21,826 nt of DNA from a virus: IMG/VR virus record IMGVR_UViG_3300048916_000025, positions 1 to 21,826 of that record. One strand, written 5' to 3'. Of this stretch, positions 4,878 through 19,227 are shown one piece after another; the first letter of the stretch is position 1; every line of letters begins with the position of its first letter. A program made the position numbers and the translations under genes. Under the pieces are notes generated by a model that was not told where the DNA came from, searched no databases, and saw nothing but the letters and a program-made list of their open reading frames with translations.

Positions 4878-5102
4878 TTAAGCTGCCTGGTTCGGACGAG
4901 GAAACAGGTGAGGTAAATCAGGGCGAATCTCATAGGCCTTGATCTGCCCTCCAGTGGCGTTAACGATGGCGGATACTTTCTCTGGTGATACCAGGCCGCC
5001 TTTCAGCCATTTGTGTACAGCTGGCTGCGTTACACCACACTCGTCGGCGAGTCGCTTTTGACTACCGACAATTTGCAAGGCTCGTTGAATAACTAAATTC
5101 AT
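4878..5102 (-). CDS. cro: Cro repressor
   Basis: The 74-residue HTH protein is the first gene of the pR operon and diverges from cI. The helix-turn-helix is at about residues 12-36 (SQKRLADECGVTQPAVHKWLKGG), followed by VSPEKVSAIVNATGGQIKAYEIRPDLP, a YdaS/Cro-type layout. ATG 5102 has AAGAGG upstream. It should bind the OR and OL operators and repress cI transcription from PRM and later early transcription. Confidence 0.88.
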   Translation of the reverse strand: MNLVIQRALQIVGSQKRLADECGVTQPAVHKWLKGGLVSPEKVSAIVNATGGQIKAYEIRPDLPHLFPRPNQAA

Positions 5103-5135
5103 GAGTTTGCCTCTTGTGGTTATTGGACATAATTA

Positions 5136-5164
5136 ATCATAACTTAAGTTATCGAGCATGTCCA
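5136..5164 (-). promoter_or_regulatory. Promoter PR
   Basis: On the minus strand TGGACA (5159-5164) and TATGAT (5136-5141) are separated by exactly 17 bp and drive cro. OR1 (5139-5152) covers the spacer and -10, and OR2 (5164-5177) abuts the -35, so a bound repressor would block it. Confidence 0.8.
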
Positions 5165-5201
5165 TAACCATTGTTATTTTACTTTGCATAACCGTGGTTA
5201 T
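5139..5201. promoter_or_regulatory. OR operator region, three CI/Cro sites
   Basis: Three 14-bp palindromes on the model ATAAC-N4-GTTAT are present: ATAACTTAAGTTAT at 5139-5152, ATAACCATTGTTAT at 5164-5177 and ATAACCGTGGTTAT at 5188-5201. Start spacings are 25 and 24 bp. They fill the cro-cI interval, the first two overlapping PR and the third overlapping the likely PRM -10 (TATAAA at 5199-5204). Confidence 0.92.
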
Positions 5202-5213
5202 AAATTTGATGGC

Positions 5214-5927
5214 ATGAAAACATTCGCTGAAAGACTAAATGCCGCCATGAGTTCTGCGGGGCTTTCACAAGCTCAGCTGGCCGAAATGGTAGGTATATCG
5301 CAGCCTGCCATTCAGAAGATGTCCTCTGGTAAAACCAATGGGACGCGGAAGATGGTGGAGCTTGCTCACGCGCTTAAAGTAAGACCGGAGTGGTTAAGCT
5401 CTGGCATCGGCTCTATGCGCACGGATTCCAATGAATCCAACATTGCCCCTGAAAACTCGTGGGGTAGCATTGACGCCTGGGATAGTTCGACGCCGTTACC
5501 TAAGGATGAGGTGGAGATCCCTTACTTGAAAGACATTGAGTTCGCTTGTGGCAATGGAAGAATCACAGCAGAAGATCACAATGGGTTTAAGCTGCGTTTC
5601 TCGAAGGCCACTCTAAGAAAAGTTGGGGCTAATAGCGATGGTTCAGGAGTTTTGTGTTTCCCGGCAACGGGCGACAGCATGGAGCCAATCATACCTGATG
5701 GGACAACCGTTGCGATTGACACTAACAACAAACGCATTATCGACGGAAAGATTTACGCAATATCGCAGCCAGGGGCAGGCGAAGAGAGGTTAAAGCGGAT
5801 AAAGCAGCTTTACCGAAAGCCTGGAGGAAAGCTCACCATTCGGAGTTTCAATCGAGAGGATGAGGAGGCTGATGAATCAGAAGTTGAAATAATCGGCCGC
5901 GTATTCTGGTACTCAGTCTTACTCTAA
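5214..5927 (+). CDS. cI: CI prophage repressor (S24 self-cleaving)
   Basis: The 237-residue repressor has an N-terminal HTH at about residues 17-40 (LSQAQLAEMVGISQPAIQKM). Its C-terminal S24 peptidase domain has the cleavage site ACGNG (Cys112-Gly113, as in UmuD; most CI proteins use Ala-Gly), nucleophile S155 in GDSMEP and base K194 in RLKRIK. RecA-stimulated self-cleavage would induce the prophage. ATG 5214 is chosen because the HTH protein normally starts about there. The likely PRM -10 ends 10 bp upstream, so the PRM message would be nearly leaderless, as in lambda. An upstream in-frame TTG at 5184 lies within the operators. Confidence 0.95.
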   Translation: MKTFAERLNAAMSSAGLSQAQLAEMVGISQPAIQKMSSGKTNGTRKMVELAHALKVRPEWLSSGIGSMRTDSNESNIAPENSWGSIDAWDSSTPLPKDEVEIPYLKDIEFACGNGRITAEDHNGFKLRFSKATLRKVGANSDGSGVLCFPATGDSMEPIIPDGTTVAIDTNNKRIIDGKIYAISQPGAGEERLKRIKQLYRKPGGKLTIRSFNREDEEADESEVEIIGRVFWYSVLL

Positions 5928-5930
5928 TCA

Positions 5931-5954
5931 AAGCCCGCACATAGCGGGCTTTTT
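5931..5954 (+). terminator. Intrinsic terminator after cI
   Basis: Stem AAGCCCGC/GCGGGCTT (5931-5938 with 5944-5951), loop ACATA, followed by T's; it starts 4 nt after the cI stop. Confidence 0.88.
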
Positions 5955-6059
5955 AGTGCCCACAACACCAAACCCCACCCCAAAAATAACCTTCAAGACA
6001 AAATTTACAAAACTAAATTCCTTTAGTTATCGCACAGTTATAACTTTTTAACACCAATT

Positions 6060-13443: not shown

Positions 13444-13771
13444 AGCCAAAACGCTAACCGCCAGACAGGCGGCAGAACTCCTTATAACCTCGCCACGTAC
13501 CGTCTACAGACTCATCGACTCAGGCCAGTTAGCCGGAAAGAAGGTGGGTAACAAATACCGCACAACCGATGTCGCCTGTATTGCGTATTTACATGACCCG
13601 CGCGATCCTGTTGCCGCGAGCGCGGGTGAACATAAAGGAGAGTATTTATGTCAATCACCCTCAGAGGCGGAGTGTGGCACTGTCATTTCGTTACACCGTC
13701 AGGGAAAAGAATTAGACAATCTCTTGGTACGGGGGACAAGAAACAAGCTCAGGAGTTGCACGACAGGCTAA
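13436..13771 (+). CDS. xis: Excisionase / HTH_17-type DNA-binding protein
   Basis: The N-terminal [40 protein letters not shown] (about residues 7-43) is the MerR-like excisionase fold. It lies directly upstream of int, as xis genes do, and overlaps it by 124 nt, so the last 40 residues are encoded in an alternative frame of int. GGAG at 13426-13429 fits ATG 13436 better than ATG 13433. It should bend attachment-site DNA and favour excision. Confidence 0.75.
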
Positions 13772-14811
13772 AGGCAGAAGCGTGGCGTGTGGATAAAATC
13801 GGAGAACTGCCGACAAGGACGTTTGAGGAGTGCTGCATCAGATGGATTCGAGAGAAGGAACACAAGCGGTCACTGGATGACGACAAGACCAAAATCGAAT
13901 ACCTCCTGAAGCATTTTTCAGGAAGGGATGTTTCGACCATCACAGCCGAGCAGGTTTACGATGCTGTTTCGAAGATGGTTAACCGCAAGCATATTCAGGT
14001 GTGGGAGTCGAGAAGGGATGCGGCCATCCGCAGAGGAAAGGAGCCACCACAGTATGTTGAGAAACCGGTGAGCCAGGCCACAAAGAGTCAGCACCTTTCG
14101 TTCATGCGGTCACTGCTTAAGACAGCAGCTAATGACTGGGGGTGGATAAAGACATCACCGGTTATTAAAACCAAAAAGCCAATCAGCAAGCGCATTCGCT
14201 GGCTTACCAGAGATGAGGCTGAACGGCTTATCGACTGCATGCCGGAGTCGATAAAGCCAGTGGTGATATTTGCACTGGCAACCGGCCTGCGCCGCTCCAA
14301 CATCATTGATCTTGAGTGGCAGCAGGTAGATATGCAGAGAAAGGTTGCATGGGTAAATCCGGAGAACGCGAAGGCGGGCAAGGCTATCGGCGTAGCTCTG
14401 AATGATACCGCATGCAGGGTGTTAAGGGATCAGATTGGTAAAAGTTCGAGATGGGTTTTCGTTCACACCAAACCATCGACGCGGCCGGATAAAACTGTCA
14501 CCCCGGCGGTCAGGAAAATGCGCGTGGACGACAACAGCGCCTGGCGCATTGGCTTGGCAAAAGCGGGTATAGAGGACTTTCGTTTTCACGACCTCAGGCA
14601 TACCTGGGCGAGCTGGTTAATTCAGTCCGGCGTACCGCTTTCCGTGTTGCAGGAAATGGGCGGCTGGGAGTCGATCGAAATGGTCCGTCGTTATGCTCAC
14701 CTGGCGCCGAACCATTTAAGCGAACACGCGCGGAAAATAGATGCCATTTTTGGCAACCATGACACAAATACGACACAAGGAGAAAATCAGGCTGGGTTGA
14801 AACTGGCGTAA
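13648..14811 (+). CDS. int: Tyrosine integrase (P22 Int-like)
   Basis: The 387-residue protein has the same length as P22 Int and matches it in many long stretches, such as SLGT(G/K)[17 protein letters not shown](D/N)[16 protein letters not shown] and [14 protein letters not shown]. An N-terminal arm-binding region (1-50) and core-binding region (58-175) precede the catalytic domain with R215, H314-x-x-R317, W340 and nucleophile Y349. GGAG precedes ATG 13648. It acts on the attP 16 bp downstream. The C-terminal end varies from P22, as it overlaps arm-site DNA. Confidence 0.97.
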
Positions 14812-15051: not shown

Positions 15052-15441
15052 TCACATAACCGGACAATCATCAAACTCACCAGAACGCGCATCATTGATG
15101 ATGTAGGTGATTACCCCGAACATCGGACGCGATGTATCTGACGCATCGTTCTTGTCCGGCAACGCCTCACGCTTACCACTCTCCAGATTTTCAAGATGCG
15201 GTTTCGGGCTCGTCCTGTATCGCTTAATCCTGAACTCACCTTCGCATGCACACACCAGTAATGAGCCATCACAAGGGCTCAATGAAGCGTCGACAACAAG
15301 CAGAGCGCCGCTCAGGATTCCTTCACGATAATGCGTAGCACCGGCTCTCATGAAGTACGTAGCCGCTGGCCTGCTTATGATGCGCTGGTCAAGCGATATG
15401 CGCTGCTCAACATAGTCTTGTGCTGGACTCGGGAATCCCAT
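15052..15441 (-). CDS. UmuD/LexA-like (S24) protein lacking the usual catalytic Ser
   Basis: The 129-residue protein has the fold of the UmuD C-terminal domain: ATYFMRAGATHYREGILSGALLVVD, GSLLVCACEGEFRIKRYR, and GVITYIINDAR...DDCPVM. The Lys of the Ser-Lys dyad is kept in FRIKRY. At the GDSM position the sequence reads GATH, so the nucleophile is missing or replaced by Thr. A near-perfect LexA box lies 17 nt upstream of ATG 15441, with GGAGGT as ribosome site. It is probably an SOS-induced UmuD'-like mimic or regulator; it is not expected to self-cleave. Confidence 0.8.
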   Translation of the reverse strand: MGFPSPAQDYVEQRISLDQRIISRPAATYFMRAGATHYREGILSGALLVVDASLSPCDGSLLVCACEGEFRIKRYRTSPKPHLENLESGKREALPDKNDASDTSRPMFGVITYIINDARSGEFDDCPVM

Positions 15442-15458
15442 AACTCACCTCCGATAGT

Positions 15459-15478
15459 TACTGTATATGCATACAGTA
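15459..15478. promoter_or_regulatory. LexA (SOS) box
   Basis: TACTGTATATGCATACAGTA is a perfect 20-bp palindrome and fits the LexA consensus TACTGTATATATATACAGTA at all but two positions. It stands 17 bp upstream of the UmuD-like gene and about 100 bp upstream of the divergent acyltransferase gene. Confidence 0.9.
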
Positions 15479-15539
15479 TTATCGATCGGTGATGCCGATC
15501 AAGTCGCTTTTGCAAACAGAATGATCAGATTCCTCTTAA

Positions 15540-15566
15540 CTGTTAAAATCACTCGCCTTTTAACAG
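15540..15566. repeat. Inverted repeat upstream of the acyltransferase gene
   Basis: CTGTTAAAA (15540-15548) and TTTTAACAG (15558-15566) form a perfect 9-bp inverted repeat around a 9-nt spacer, ending 12 nt before the acyltransferase start. It may be an operator or an mRNA hairpin that hides the start. A second hairpin, GATCGG-TGATG-CCGATC, lies at 15484-15500. Confidence 0.6.
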
Positions 15567-15578
15567 ATAAGAAAGTTG

Positions 15579-16652
15579 ATGATGATTGCCAACATTCAGT
15601 ATTTGCGGTTTCTGGCCGCCTTCCTCGTGATTTATGCTCATGCAAACCTTGCCGTTTATGGCATCACCCCACATATCACAAACCTTGGTGGTGTTGGTGT
15701 TGACATATTTTTCATCATCAGCGGTTTTATCATGCCTTACATCATTTACGGCGGGCTCTATAAGGATGGCATGACGCCAAAATTAACGCCGCTGGGTTTC
15801 ATAAAGCGCCGCATAACCCGCATATGGCCTTTGTACCTTGTCGCAACATTGGTAGTGGTGTTCATATCATGGCTGGTTGATTCTGGTGCTATATCCCAGC
15901 CTACTGCAGATTTTGCATATATCTTCAACGGCTCGCGACTAGACCTCATGTGGATCATCAAAACGATGACGTTCATGAACTTCGATAAGCCTCCAATCCT
16001 TGGTATCGGCTGGACTTTGCAGTTTGAATTCTTATTTTATTTTTTACTCGCCGGGCTGCTTGCGATTGGCATTAAAAAAGCAAACTCACTCGAGTTTTAT
16101 TCAGTCTGCGCCCTGGTAGTTTTTGGTGCAGGTAACGCACTGGCTCACGGCGAAAGTAAGGTTCTGGTAACGCTGTCCAGCCAGATGTTTATCGAATTCA
16201 TCCTCGGCATGTATCTTTACCGCATGTACTCAGCAGGATGCGTCCTGCCGAAGTGGTTGGCGTGGATTGGTATAGCTTCTTTCTTCCCGCTTTTTGCGTT
16301 CGCTAACTCGGGTGTTTTTGCCTATAACGTTTATTCCAGACTGCTGACATGGGGCATCCCGGCGTTCGTAATTGTCTGGTCGGCGCTGAGCCTTGAAGGG
16401 GTTATTCCTCACAATCGCACTTTCCTGCTACTGGGCGACTCATCTTATAGCCTGTACCTGTCTCACGGTATCTCAGCGCCGGTATTTCTGTTTATCTGGA
16501 CGCAACTTGGCCTTGATAAGACAGTAAGCGTAGTTCCTTATGTTATCGTCTATTACGTCTACTGTCAGGTTATCGCCCTTGCCTGCTATAAACTCATTGA
16601 AAAGCCTGTTAATGGCTGGATAAAGAAAAAAGCATACGGAAAAGCTAAATGA
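15579..16652 (+). CDS. Membrane acyltransferase-3 (O-antigen acetyltransferase type)
   Basis: The 357-residue polytopic protein has about ten hydrophobic segments. The N-terminus has the acyltransferase-3 signature IQYLRFLAAFLVIYAHANL (conserved R10 and H21), then GVGVDIFFIISGFIMPYI at about 38-55 and SYSLYLSHG near the C-terminus. Family knowledge: such proteins (for example Sf6 Oac) carry acyl groups across the inner membrane to surface glycans. There is no fused SGNH domain; the next gene encodes one and starts inside its stop codon (ATGA). ATG 15579 is preferred; TTG 15576 and ATG 15582 are adjacent. Confidence 0.9.
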   Translation: MMIANIQYLRFLAAFLVIYAHANLAVYGITPHITNLGGVGVDIFFIISGFIMPYIIYGGLYKDGMTPKLTPLGFIKRRITRIWPLYLVATLVVVFISWLVDSGAISQPTADFAYIFNGSRLDLMWIIKTMTFMNFDKPPILGIGWTLQFEFLFYFLLAGLLAIGIKKANSLEFYSVCALVVFGAGNALAHGESKVLVTLSSQMFIEFILGMYLYRMYSAGCVLPKWLAWIGIASFFPLFAFANSGVFAYNVYSRLLTWGIPAFVIVWSALSLEGVIPHNRTFLLLGDSSYSLYLSHGISAPVFLFIWTQLGLDKTVSVVPYVIVYYVYCQVIALACYKLIEKPVNGWIKKKAYGKAK

Positions 16653-17764
16653 AACACTTAAAGATACTTACATGCCTGTTTATTTCTCTTTCCGCTAGCG
16701 CGGAGCTTCCAGCGCTGGCTGATAAATACACGACATGCAATGATGTTTCTTGCAGCAATTATGTCGTTAATAAATTTAACATCCATCCTTCATTCTTTGG
16801 TGGGCATTATGTTTATTCAGACATGGTTTATGCATCAAAGGAGTACAAGAAAGAAGGTTTGCTTTTTACCCCTGAAGGTCCGGTGATGATGTTTAATCAG
16901 ATGACCGGGAAACTTTTAGTCGCCGGGAAAGATTTTTCCGTCCATGGCGATCAAGTGTCTTTCCCTTCTTCAACAACTGTTGACCTTGCTCCTGTTGGTT
17001 TCAGCAAGCCGGAGAAAGAAGATAAAGATTTTAACGTAAGAGTAACTCTTGAGTATCCATTCCATCAGATGTCTGTTTCATACAAAAAAAATGAAAGCAT
17101 GCGACTTTTAATGAGTGGCAGCATTACAGATCTGAGGGAAATAATTAAAGATAAGAAAGACTTAAAGATAACTTACTTCGGAGATAGCATAACGTTTGGA
17201 GCCAATGCTACAGGGAACTACTCCGCGCCAAATCAGCCACCTTTTGCTGACCTTACTTCAGCGTACCTTGCGATGATTCGTGGCGGGGATGTGCAGTGGT
17301 ACAATCCATCTGTACCTGGATGGAACAGTGCTAATGCAGTTAGCGATGAAACTGGTCGAATGCTAAAGTTTGATTCAGACGTTTATGTAATTGCATTTGG
17401 CGTGAACGATAGCAATGATATAGAACCTAAAATATTCGTTGCTAACATTGAAAAACTTATTAAAGACATTAAGGCCAAAAATAAGCATGCACGAATCGTT
17501 TTAATGTCGGCAACACGTCCAAACCCAGAGTGGGTATTGCCTAAGAAAGAATACTTTGACGGGTACAGAAAGGGACTGAGTGGACTCTCAAAAAAATATG
17601 AGCGCACTACCTTCATAGATATTACAGATGTGTGGAACCAGCTTCTCAAGCGCAAGAACATATGGGCAATAACGGGAAATGGGGTAAATCACCCGGGTGA
17701 TTTTGGTCACAGGGTGATAGCGGAAGCATTGCTTACCGCCTTCCTTGGCGATGACTTCTCTTAA
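16649..17764 (+). CDS. Secreted SGNH-hydrolase-like protein (partner of AT3)
   Basis: The 371-residue protein has a signal peptide (KHLKILTCLFISLSASA, likely cut near residue 18 or 25). Residues about 30-150 form a β-rich domain like the jelly roll of CE2 esterases. The SGNH domain follows, with GDS at 178-180 (nucleophile S180), block II Gly in PGWNSAN (G224), GVND at 251-254, and the D351-x-x-H354 pair in NHPGDFGH. All catalytic residues are present. It should act in the periplasm as a glycan esterase or acetyl transferase taking acyl groups from the upstream AT3 protein. It overlaps the tailspike stop by 4 nt, convergently. Confidence 0.88.
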   Translation: MKHLKILTCLFISLSASAELPALADKYTTCNDVSCSNYVVNKFNIHPSFFGGHYVYSDMVYASKEYKKEGLLFTPEGPVMMFNQMTGKLLVAGKDFSVHGDQVSFPSSTTVDLAPVGFSKPEKEDKDFNVRVTLEYPFHQMSVSYKKNESMRLLMSGSITDLREIIKDKKDLKITYFGDSITFGANATGNYSAPNQPPFADLTSAYLAMIRGGDVQWYNPSVPGWNSANAVSDETGRMLKFDSDVYVIAFGVNDSNDIEPKIFVANIEKLIKDIKAKNKHARIVLMSATRPNPEWVLPKKEYFDGYRKGLSGLSKKYERTTFIDITDVWNQLLKRKNIWAITGNGVNHPGDFGHRVIAEALLTAFLGDDFS

Positions 17765-19227
17765 ACAACAATTTTTAGGAAGTTTGACGCATCCTTATAG
17801 ATGGTGCCCGCAGGGGCACCGGATATTTCCGCCAGTGTTTTAACATTTTTCAGAGCCACCATTCCATCCGTTGATAGTTCAATGCTCTGTACTCCGTTGT
17901 TCATGTTGATCTTCAATGTTCCAACCGCACTCCCGCCATTTGCACTTGTCCATTCCAGGGATGCAATATCAAGCGAAGTTCCAGTGTTAGAGGTTCCCTG
18001 AAGTTTTATCTTGGCGTTACCAGTTCCTGTAATCCTGAAAGCTGCATTGGTGCCGGTAGGCATGGCAACATCCAGTGGTTCCTTGGGGTCTAATGTGTGT
18101 ATACCAACGAATGGCATATCATTAACACCACCGCCCGCTGCTTTTGCTGTTATTGCAGGAATGACAGAGTTGGCAAAAATGGCTACTGATTTCGTACTTG
18201 AGTTTATCGCTGGGTTACCAGAGTTAATCCCGGAGCCTATAACGATAGCACCGCCATACGCCTGGGAATAACGACCAACGGCAAATGCCCCATCTCCTGC
18301 CGCGCGAGTGGAATAACCTAACGCCGTTGCGCCAATGCCATCGCTTGCCACCCCTCCAGGGTCAGATGTGAATCCAGCCCTGGCCTGAGTGAAATATCCT
18401 GCGGCAAATGATGCGCGCGATTTTGCTTCTACCTCTTCACAAAGGGCTGCAGATTTAGCACCGAGAGCTATAACATTCTTGCCAAACGCAAATGAGCAAT
18501 AGCCTTCCGCGTTTGGAGAGGTAATATCATCAGGGTTACCAGTGGCGCACCCTGCACCGCCAGCAAGCGATGCGACACCATACGTAACGCAGTCATGCCC
18601 GAATGTTGTGGTGTATACCGCGAATGACGCACCGTTTCTGTTAAAAGATACGGAGTAGTCGCCAATCATGGCTGGGTTTCCCCATGAGTTTCTAGATGGA
18701 AGTCCTCGCCAGAAGTTCTTCTCGTCATCAAGCGGCTCCAGATCGGAGCCACCAACTCGCAGATATCCTTTTATCTTGTCAAATAACCACATTACCCCCT
18801 GAGTAAGTGATGAACCTACAGGGATTCCGTAGTTTACCTTCTGCCCGATGAGCTTCATGCCATCGCTCTGTGCCAGCTCATCACGAAGGGTATTCGGGTT
18901 ATATTTCAGTACGTCTGCAAAATTGTGCTGCTGAACACCTGTGGCATCGTACACAGCCATAGAATACTCGTCGGATACAACGAACTTTGCAATCTGACCG
19001 TTATAGACAAGATAGCCACCGCTGTTGATTATAAGCGGCTGAGAAACAGGGATTACAGTTCCTGATTCCGTTTCAACATAGACCTGAATCTGGTTTGATG
19101 GAACGGTTGGGTCTGTGTATTTTGCGCCTATATACACCGTTCCGTTTGCAATAGCCTTGAATGACCTGGCTAACGTATACGGTGTTACTGGCATACCTAC
19201 TAAAATATTCTGAATATCGTCAGCCAT
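17761..19227 (-). CDS. 9: Chimeric tailspike: P22 head-binding domain plus YadA-head-like repeats
   Basis: Residues 1-115 match the P22 tailspike head-binding domain (RSFKAIANGTVYIG, QPLIINSGGYLVYNGQ, MAVYDATG, VLKYNPN). Residues about 188-335 hold short Ala/Gly repeats (SFAFGKNVIALGAKSA, SFAAGYFTQARAG, TALGYSTRAAGDGAFAVGRYSQAYG), typical of YadA-type left-handed β-rolls. Residues 370-488 (VGIHTLDPKEPLDV ... GTIYKDASNFLKIVV) look like a trimerising fibre tip. At 488 residues it is shorter than P22 gp9 (667), and no endorhamnosidase region is seen. It should attach to the tail machine and bind the host receptor. Confidence 0.88.
   Translation of the reverse strand: MADDIQNILVGMPVTPYTLARSFKAIANGTVYIGAKYTDPTVPSNQIQVYVETESGTVIPVSQPLIINSGGYLVYNGQIAKFVVSDEYSMAVYDATGVQQHNFADVLKYNPNTLRDELAQSDGMKLIGQKVNYGIPVGSSLTQGVMWLFDKIKGYLRVGGSDLEPLDDEKNFWRGLPSRNSWGNPAMIGDYSVSFNRNGASFAVYTTTFGHDCVTYGVASLAGGAGCATGNPDDITSPNAEGYCSFAFGKNVIALGAKSAALCEEVEAKSRASFAAGYFTQARAGFTSDPGGVASDGIGATALGYSTRAAGDGAFAVGRYSQAYGGAIVIGSGINSGNPAINSSTKSVAIFANSVIPAITAKAAGGGVNDMPFVGIHTLDPKEPLDVAMPTGTNAAFRITGTGNAKIKLQGTSNTGTSLDIASLEWTSANGGSAVGTLKINMNNGVQSIELSTDGMVALKNVKTLAEISGAPAGTIYKDASNFLKIVV

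Follow-up and report, generated by a model that had tools for sequence, protein, structure and literature searches.

Introduction

The envelope acylation systems known from reviews and primary papers are AT3-only enzymes, AT3-SGNH fusions and MBOAT-SGNH pairs, and the same literature asks whether AT3-only enzymes have a partner as yet unknown (PMC9833829, PMC12148441, PMC7448272). AT3 enzymes bring acetyl through the membrane; in the fused enzymes, the SGNH domain does the final transfer (PMC7448272). A stand-alone AT3 protein, WecH, is reported to hand off in trans to the soluble SGNH protein PatB (PMC9558356, PMC7448272). In gtrABC, gtrA and gtrB are conserved and gtrC is serotype-specific (PMC2629481). 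Here, we describe a phage locus with an AT3 gene and a free SGNH gene beside the tail fibre, on a DNA stretch of 21,826 nucleotides (positions 1–21,826 of the viral IMG/VR record IMGVR_UViG_3300048916_000025; "the window"). Within the open-access literature, a part of the whole, we found no description of such a phage pair.

Like Oac of phage Sf6, the membrane protein of the window is AT3-only, lies in a conversion slot near the tailspike and carries R-X10-H, RxxR and FFxISG motifs; unlike Sf6 Oac, which has no linked SGNH gene (PMC7448272), it is encoded together with a secreted SGNH protein that has exchangeable alleles. The OafA/OafB and OatA fusions likewise combine an AT3 part with an SGNH part bearing a Ser-Asp-His triad and an N-terminal extension before the SGNH core, but the window has two genes rather than a fusion, with neither an eleventh helix nor the fused-type motif in AT3, and an SGNH protein with a signal peptide of its own. 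As in PatA/PatB and AlgI/AlgX, of the MBOAT-SGNH kind, a membrane-bound supplier is separate from a soluble periplasmic SGNH protein; here, however, the membrane-bound half is an AT3 protein with no sequence relationship to MBOAT, and the pair is phage-borne and fibre-linked. The resemblance to gtrABC lies in the same slot in a related Enterobacter phage, in the division into constant and exchangeable specificity parts and in the occurrence in several phage types (PMC2629481), whereas the chemistry would be acyl rather than glucosyl and the link to one fibre C-terminal region is unusually tight. The two systems show no homology: Pfam and PHROG profile searches gave no GtrA, GtrB or GtrC match in the pair. 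Lastly, an SGNH fold also stands at the fibre locus in phages whose fibres are SGNH esterases (G7C gp63.1, Klebsiella prophage receptor-binding proteins), but the SGNH protein of the window is free, predicted to be secreted and outside the virion.

A stand-alone AT3 gene and a free SGNH gene share a putative conversion slot

The genes and signals of the locus are the following.
13648–14811, + strand: integrase flanking the conversion slot (PF00589, 4.5e-41)
15052–15441, − strand: UmuD-like gene flanking the cassette (phrog_811, 6.8e-50)
15459–15478, unstranded: LexA-box-like palindrome TACTGTATATGCATACAGTA between the divergent UmuD-like and AT3 genes (2 mismatches to consensus, 0 expected)
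15534–15572, unstranded: inverted repeat just upstream of AT3 (15-nt arms, 93%), largely conserved with the cassette
15582–16652, + strand: AT3 membrane acyltransferase, 356 aa, of the stand-alone (ExoZ-like) type; the constant component (PF01757, phrog_3333, motifs)
16649–17764, + strand: secreted SGNH protein, 371 aa; the variable component (PF13472, catalytic set, model fold)
17761–19227, − strand: tailspike/fibre (PF09008, 2.4e-44; weak YadA_head; phrog_14251)

In profile searches the AT3 protein matched PF01757 over the whole domain (residues 3–336 of 356, E = 2.5e-26) and the PHROG family phrog_3333, "O-acetyltransferase" (1.2e-47). It has the ten hydrophobic segments expected of Acyltransferase-3 and no eleventh, and its motifs R9-X10-H20, R77-ITR and F43-FIISG correspond to R/K-X10-H, RxxR and FFxISG. 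GG[FY]xGV[DPV], which characterises AT3 domains with an SGNH fusion (PMC7448272), is absent, with GGVGVD in its place, and PF01757 was the only family matched in the membrane protein, setting it apart from the MBOAT proteins of PatA/PatB-type pairs. We placed its start at 15582 because one relative, L005, retains this ATG only. The same relative holds the sole departure from the AT3 motifs among cassette contigs, H20Y, which removes the otherwise invariant histidine, beside an intact SGNH gene and a whole fibre (4934–6004; IMG 2687453543); its pair is a candidate for a naturally inactive one, or else the record contains a sequence error. Separately, the prophage L002 has a second AT3 gene (1043–2131), 23% identical to the first and a few kb upstream of it, the two being separated by a UmuC/UmuD-like region.

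The SGNH protein consists of a signal peptide (about residues 1–18), an N-domain (about 19–160) and an SGNH domain (about 161–371) that matched PF13472 (E = 3e-19, profile search). Cleavage at ASA|E and export are predicted. Residues S180, G224, N253, D351 and H354, representing SGNH/GDSL-2 blocks I, II, III and V, are invariant in ten homologues. The N-domain, a conserved region of about 140 residues with two invariant cysteines (C30, C35), found no Pfam or PHROG match in profile searches. An AlphaFold model built on an alignment including L149, L131 and distant SGNH proteins reached a pLDDT of 60.6 and a pTM of 0.68 (pLDDT 38.5 from the ten close homologues alone). In this model, residues 160–370 are predicted to adopt an SGNH fold, with 4q9a as the best match (Z score 19.6; 188 residues, 2.5 Å). 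Most structures in the 50 top-scoring rows are carbohydrate esterases; Ape1 stands among the top Foldseek rows at 23–24% identity, and the SGNH structures of OatA and OafB are absent from these 50, which excludes nothing. The rows span residues 155–370; the N-domain was modelled at low confidence.

An earlier note on this DNA, made from its letters alone, had proposed a split AT3/SGNH pair joined by an ATGA overlap and a complete SGNH catalytic set. Both descriptions hold: the AT3 protein has neither TM11 nor a fused SGNH domain, the genes overlap at 16649–16652, and the five catalytic residues stand at the positions it gave. Its key AT3 histidine is present too, though with the start at 15582 the residue it numbered H21 becomes H20. 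The extra β-rich N-terminal domain is borne out as a conserved, cysteine-bearing region, with its strands predicted at low confidence; the CE2-like jelly roll that the note thought possible, corresponding to the N-terminal carbohydrate-binding module of CE2 esterases, is a candidate fold for it. A feature it did not mention is the tail-to-tail overlap of the convergent SGNH and fibre genes, whose stop codons overlap at 17761–17764. Nor did it mention the exchange of SGNH alleles, the tie to a single receptor-binding region on several kinds of virion, the deletion scars or the AT3-only relatives at this locus, all described below.

The int-UmuD region is 85% identical at the nucleotide level to that of E. 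coli phage HK639, in which the slot is empty and the fibre follows int-UmuD directly. In Enterobacter phage vB_Ecl_MII_001, the same slot contains fragments with annotations for a bactoprenol-linked glucose translocase and a bactoprenol glucosyl transferase (gtr); because of these gtr genes, the position supports, by analogy, the view that the pair occupies a seroconversion slot, as the earlier note had supposed. In this Enterobacter phage (L157, 18192–19422), the annotation splits the gtr-like genes next to UmuD into many short pieces, so the record may contain frameshifts or sequencing errors. The host is probably a member of the Enterobacteriaceae. The putative LexA box at 15459–15478, nearly perfect, may place an SOS-controlled promoter close to the conversion genes. 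The inverted repeat at 15534–15572 is a possible operator or promoter region, with TGTTAAAAT resembling an extended −10 element; a sigma-70 scan returned no promoter on the coding strand.

AT3 and SGNH genes occur together throughout one phage clade

Searching IMG/VR with the AT3 protein returned 13 contigs, and an independent query, this time an SGNH profile, recovered exactly these 13, so the pair is obligate within this clade. One contig matches the window at 100% identity in both proteins. In 13/13 contigs the order is AT3, SGNH (with a 4-base overlap) and then a convergent fibre gene with overlapping stop codons. These matches to PF01757 and PF13472 and their constant co-occurrence answer the family search that the earlier note had recommended; it would have given up its idea had homologues never been found next to AT3 genes, and the opposite is the case throughout the clade.

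No close relative of the SGNH protein or of the fibre region was found among INPHARED phages, nor of the SGNH protein among plasmids, and no E. coli genome contained the pair at the sensitivity used. A scan of genome contigs gave one short, weak Clostridiales match only (L020). A degenerate-codon search for GDSITxGAN found mainly the same contigs, and a looser version found L131. In L131 (1–2971), a free SGNH relative (35%) overlaps tail to tail with a non-homologous, SGNH-containing fibre; the record is cut by the contig start, and the region where AT3 would stand is absent from it.

A distant phage, L149, has the same gene order, with 45% identity in AT3, 37% over the whole length of SGNH and 37% in the fibre region; by sequence, its SGNH protein also has the signal peptide and the N-domain with its cysteine pair. 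Other AT3 relatives stand beside a fibre without a free SGNH gene: in L080, AT3 (43%) lies 34 nt from a 39% identical fibre; in L151, AT3 (41%) abuts an unrelated fibre; and in L153/L154 and E. coli L024 (4887–8593), an AT3-only gene (37–39%) faces a fibre with an SGNH domain of its own, the Pfam evidence for which (PF13472) comes from L024. Because of L080, L151, L153/L154 and L024, AT3 beside a fibre is the wider pattern, with the free SGNH gene an addition in the window's clade and in L149. In L024 and L153/L154, an acetylation gene would thus stand beside a probable deacetylating fibre.

SGNH alleles vary beside a near-constant AT3

Across the 13 contigs, AT3 is 94–100% identical at the amino acid level (mostly 85–99% in nucleotides). 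The SGNH proteins, by comparison, form allele A, 96–100% identical to that of the window, and allele B, at 59–62%, with L015 as an 84% branch of B. The catalytic set and the C30/C35 pair are retained in both alleles and in L149. Examined in windows, nucleotide identity between alleles falls to about 60% from the SGNH start and recovers at the last codons. In the siphovirus siblings L003 and L011, identity is about 100% upstream of AT3, 85–100% through AT3 and 97% as far as the SGNH start codon, ATG included; it then drops to 47–78% in the SGNH reading frame and is back at 98% over the last codons. The two also show some difference in their fibre C-termini. L004 and L011, on the other hand, share an approximately 99% identical fibre C-terminus and have different SGNH alleles, which makes the exchange of SGNH independent of the fibre. 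Read from these alignments, SGNH alleles are swapped gene-precisely between sibling phages. Strong purifying selection acts on both genes, with dN/dS of 0.02–0.05 for AT3 and about 0.05 for SGNH within alleles.

One fibre region is accompanied by the pair or by its scar

The fibre of the window combines a P22 head-binding anchor (residues 1–112) with a C-terminal receptor-binding region (about 118–488), and the latter is mostly 71–91% identical at the amino acid level among cassette-bearing phages with other anchors. The window and L015 have the P22 anchor, L002–L004, L011, L016 and L017 have siphovirus fibres encoded beside J-like tail proteins, and L005 has a phrog_1640-type anchor, such that one C-terminal region is combined with at least three kinds of virion anchor. 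When this region served as the query, 26 loci were found. Among its close relatives, 11 have an intact pair (all within the 13 contigs) and five have scars; six loci that stop at the fibre stop codon, where the record ends, and one truncated locus are uninformative. Every readable close relative of this fibre, as far as the contigs can be read, carries the pair or its scar. Two contigs with intact AT3 and SGNH genes have altered fibres: in L010 (4620–7066) the fibre C-terminus is fused to a reading frame whose start looks terminase-like by eye, and in L012 (5632–5961) the fibre is shortened to about 110 aa. Both are possibly degraded prophages.

Scars in L073, L074–L076, L021 and L022 are edged by a direct repeat.
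15616–15625, + strand: left copy of the 10-bp direct repeat CCGCCTTCCT, within AT3 codons 12–15; it bounds two deletion scars on the left
17736–17745, + strand: right copy of the 10-bp direct repeat CCGCCTTCCT, near the 3′ end of SGNH; it bounds two deletion scars on the right

In L074–L076, AT3 codons 1–14 are fused to the last SGNH codons (MIANIQYLRFLAAFLGDDFS, then stop), and L073 shows a fusion of this kind in a sequence of its own. The fusion point lies at the 10-bp repeat that the window has at 15616 and 17736, whose right copy is also near the right-hand border of the SGNH allele swap. A different scar, in L072, consists of the 24 C-terminal SGNH residues next to a fragment of UmuD. The AT3-SGNH fusion scar was present in 11/5426 complete E. 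coli genomes, and a scar of the L072 kind was read in one E. coli genome (L023). We considered whether the scars might be empty sites predating insertion; since the scar reading frame joins AT3 codons 1–14 to the SGNH end, deletion is the simpler account. The scars beside fibres show recurrent loss of the pair.

Discussion

We lean, at slightly better than even, towards a lysogenic-conversion cassette in which AT3 supplies acetyl, SGNH places it on the glycan of the fibre and lysogens refuse the same phage. AT3 would take acetyl groups from acetyl-CoA and move them through the inner membrane; in the periplasm the SGNH protein, a separate enzyme, would set them on a specific position of a surface glycan, presumably the one recognised by the neighbouring tail fibre, with O-antigen as a candidate. 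With this glycan modified, lysogens would no longer bind the same phage. AT3 would be the constant part and SGNH the exchangeable specificity part, in the manner of GtrA/GtrB and GtrC. We favour this two-component acetyltransferase because of the role of SGNH in fused AT3-SGNH enzymes, the hand-off from WecH to PatB and the gtr-like split into constant and exchangeable parts. More tentatively, and falling somewhat short of even, AT3 with a dedicated free SGNH would represent a third envelope-acylation architecture, in which one supplier serves interchangeable SGNH proteins that write different marks on the receptor of the fibre.

Several observations count against two components acting together. 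The AT3 relatives beside fibres without a free SGNH gene (L080, L151, L153/L154, L024) suggest that AT3 can act alone, and the AT3 protein of the window does not have the motif of SGNH-fused AT3 domains. The best structural matches of the modelled SGNH domain are esterases, though few transferases have been solved. Nearly the same AT3 accompanies both SGNH alleles, with no AT3-SGNH co-variation seen, and in L005 the H20Y change in AT3 stands beside an intact SGNH gene.

The main rival, less likely in our estimate, is that AT3 acetylates the glycan by itself, in the way of Sf6 Oac, while SGNH works in the periplasm as an O-acetyl esterase, trimming or moving acetyl groups or stripping the native acetylation of the host. 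The pair would then produce a net pattern instead of a hand-off. It draws on the AT3-only relatives at the same locus, on the stand-alone type of AT3 as judged by its TM1-2 loop motif and on the predicted fold, whose nearest neighbours are carbohydrate acetyl esterases including Ape1. Moreover, SGNH-containing Klebsiella prophage fibres are active esterases (PMC13123978), and transferase and esterase occur together in PatA/PatB/Ape1 operons (PMC12148441). The strict pairing, the ATGA coupling and the tight purifying selection, however, fit a common task, and an esterase and an acetyltransferase working on one bond would form a futile cycle unless their positions differ.

ExoZ-like AT3 proteins modify exopolysaccharide. 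A further alternative is a substrate other than the receptor of the fibre, be it exopolysaccharide, capsule, enterobacterial common antigen or periplasmic glucan, with the pair kept for host fitness as an ordinary moron. The possibly degraded prophages L010 and L012, which retain an intact pair beside rearranged fibre genes, are in keeping with this. We nevertheless regard it as rather improbable, given that one receptor-binding region is linked to the pair across virion types and in the distant L149, and that scars lie beside the fibre. Very improbable, and already disfavoured by the low dN/dS (0.02–0.05) and by catalytic residues retained at 37% identity, is a linkage without function, in which the fibre end and the AT3 start are recombination borders and the pair hitch-hikes, despite the sharp borders and direct repeats that such a process would leave.

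The window locus joins a natural AT3 to a separately encoded SGNH, the two never apart in their clade, and natural phage pairs that differ mainly in SGNH lend themselves to testing which of the two determines the acceptor. With so tight a link to one receptor-binding region across virion types, the enzyme beside a fibre would also reveal the receptor of the phage, and a fibre-linked pair ties lysogenic conversion to receptor use. Together, our data suggest that temperate phages of gut bacteria with this three-gene unit each relabel the surface sugar used for their own entry and can change the label by swapping one gene.
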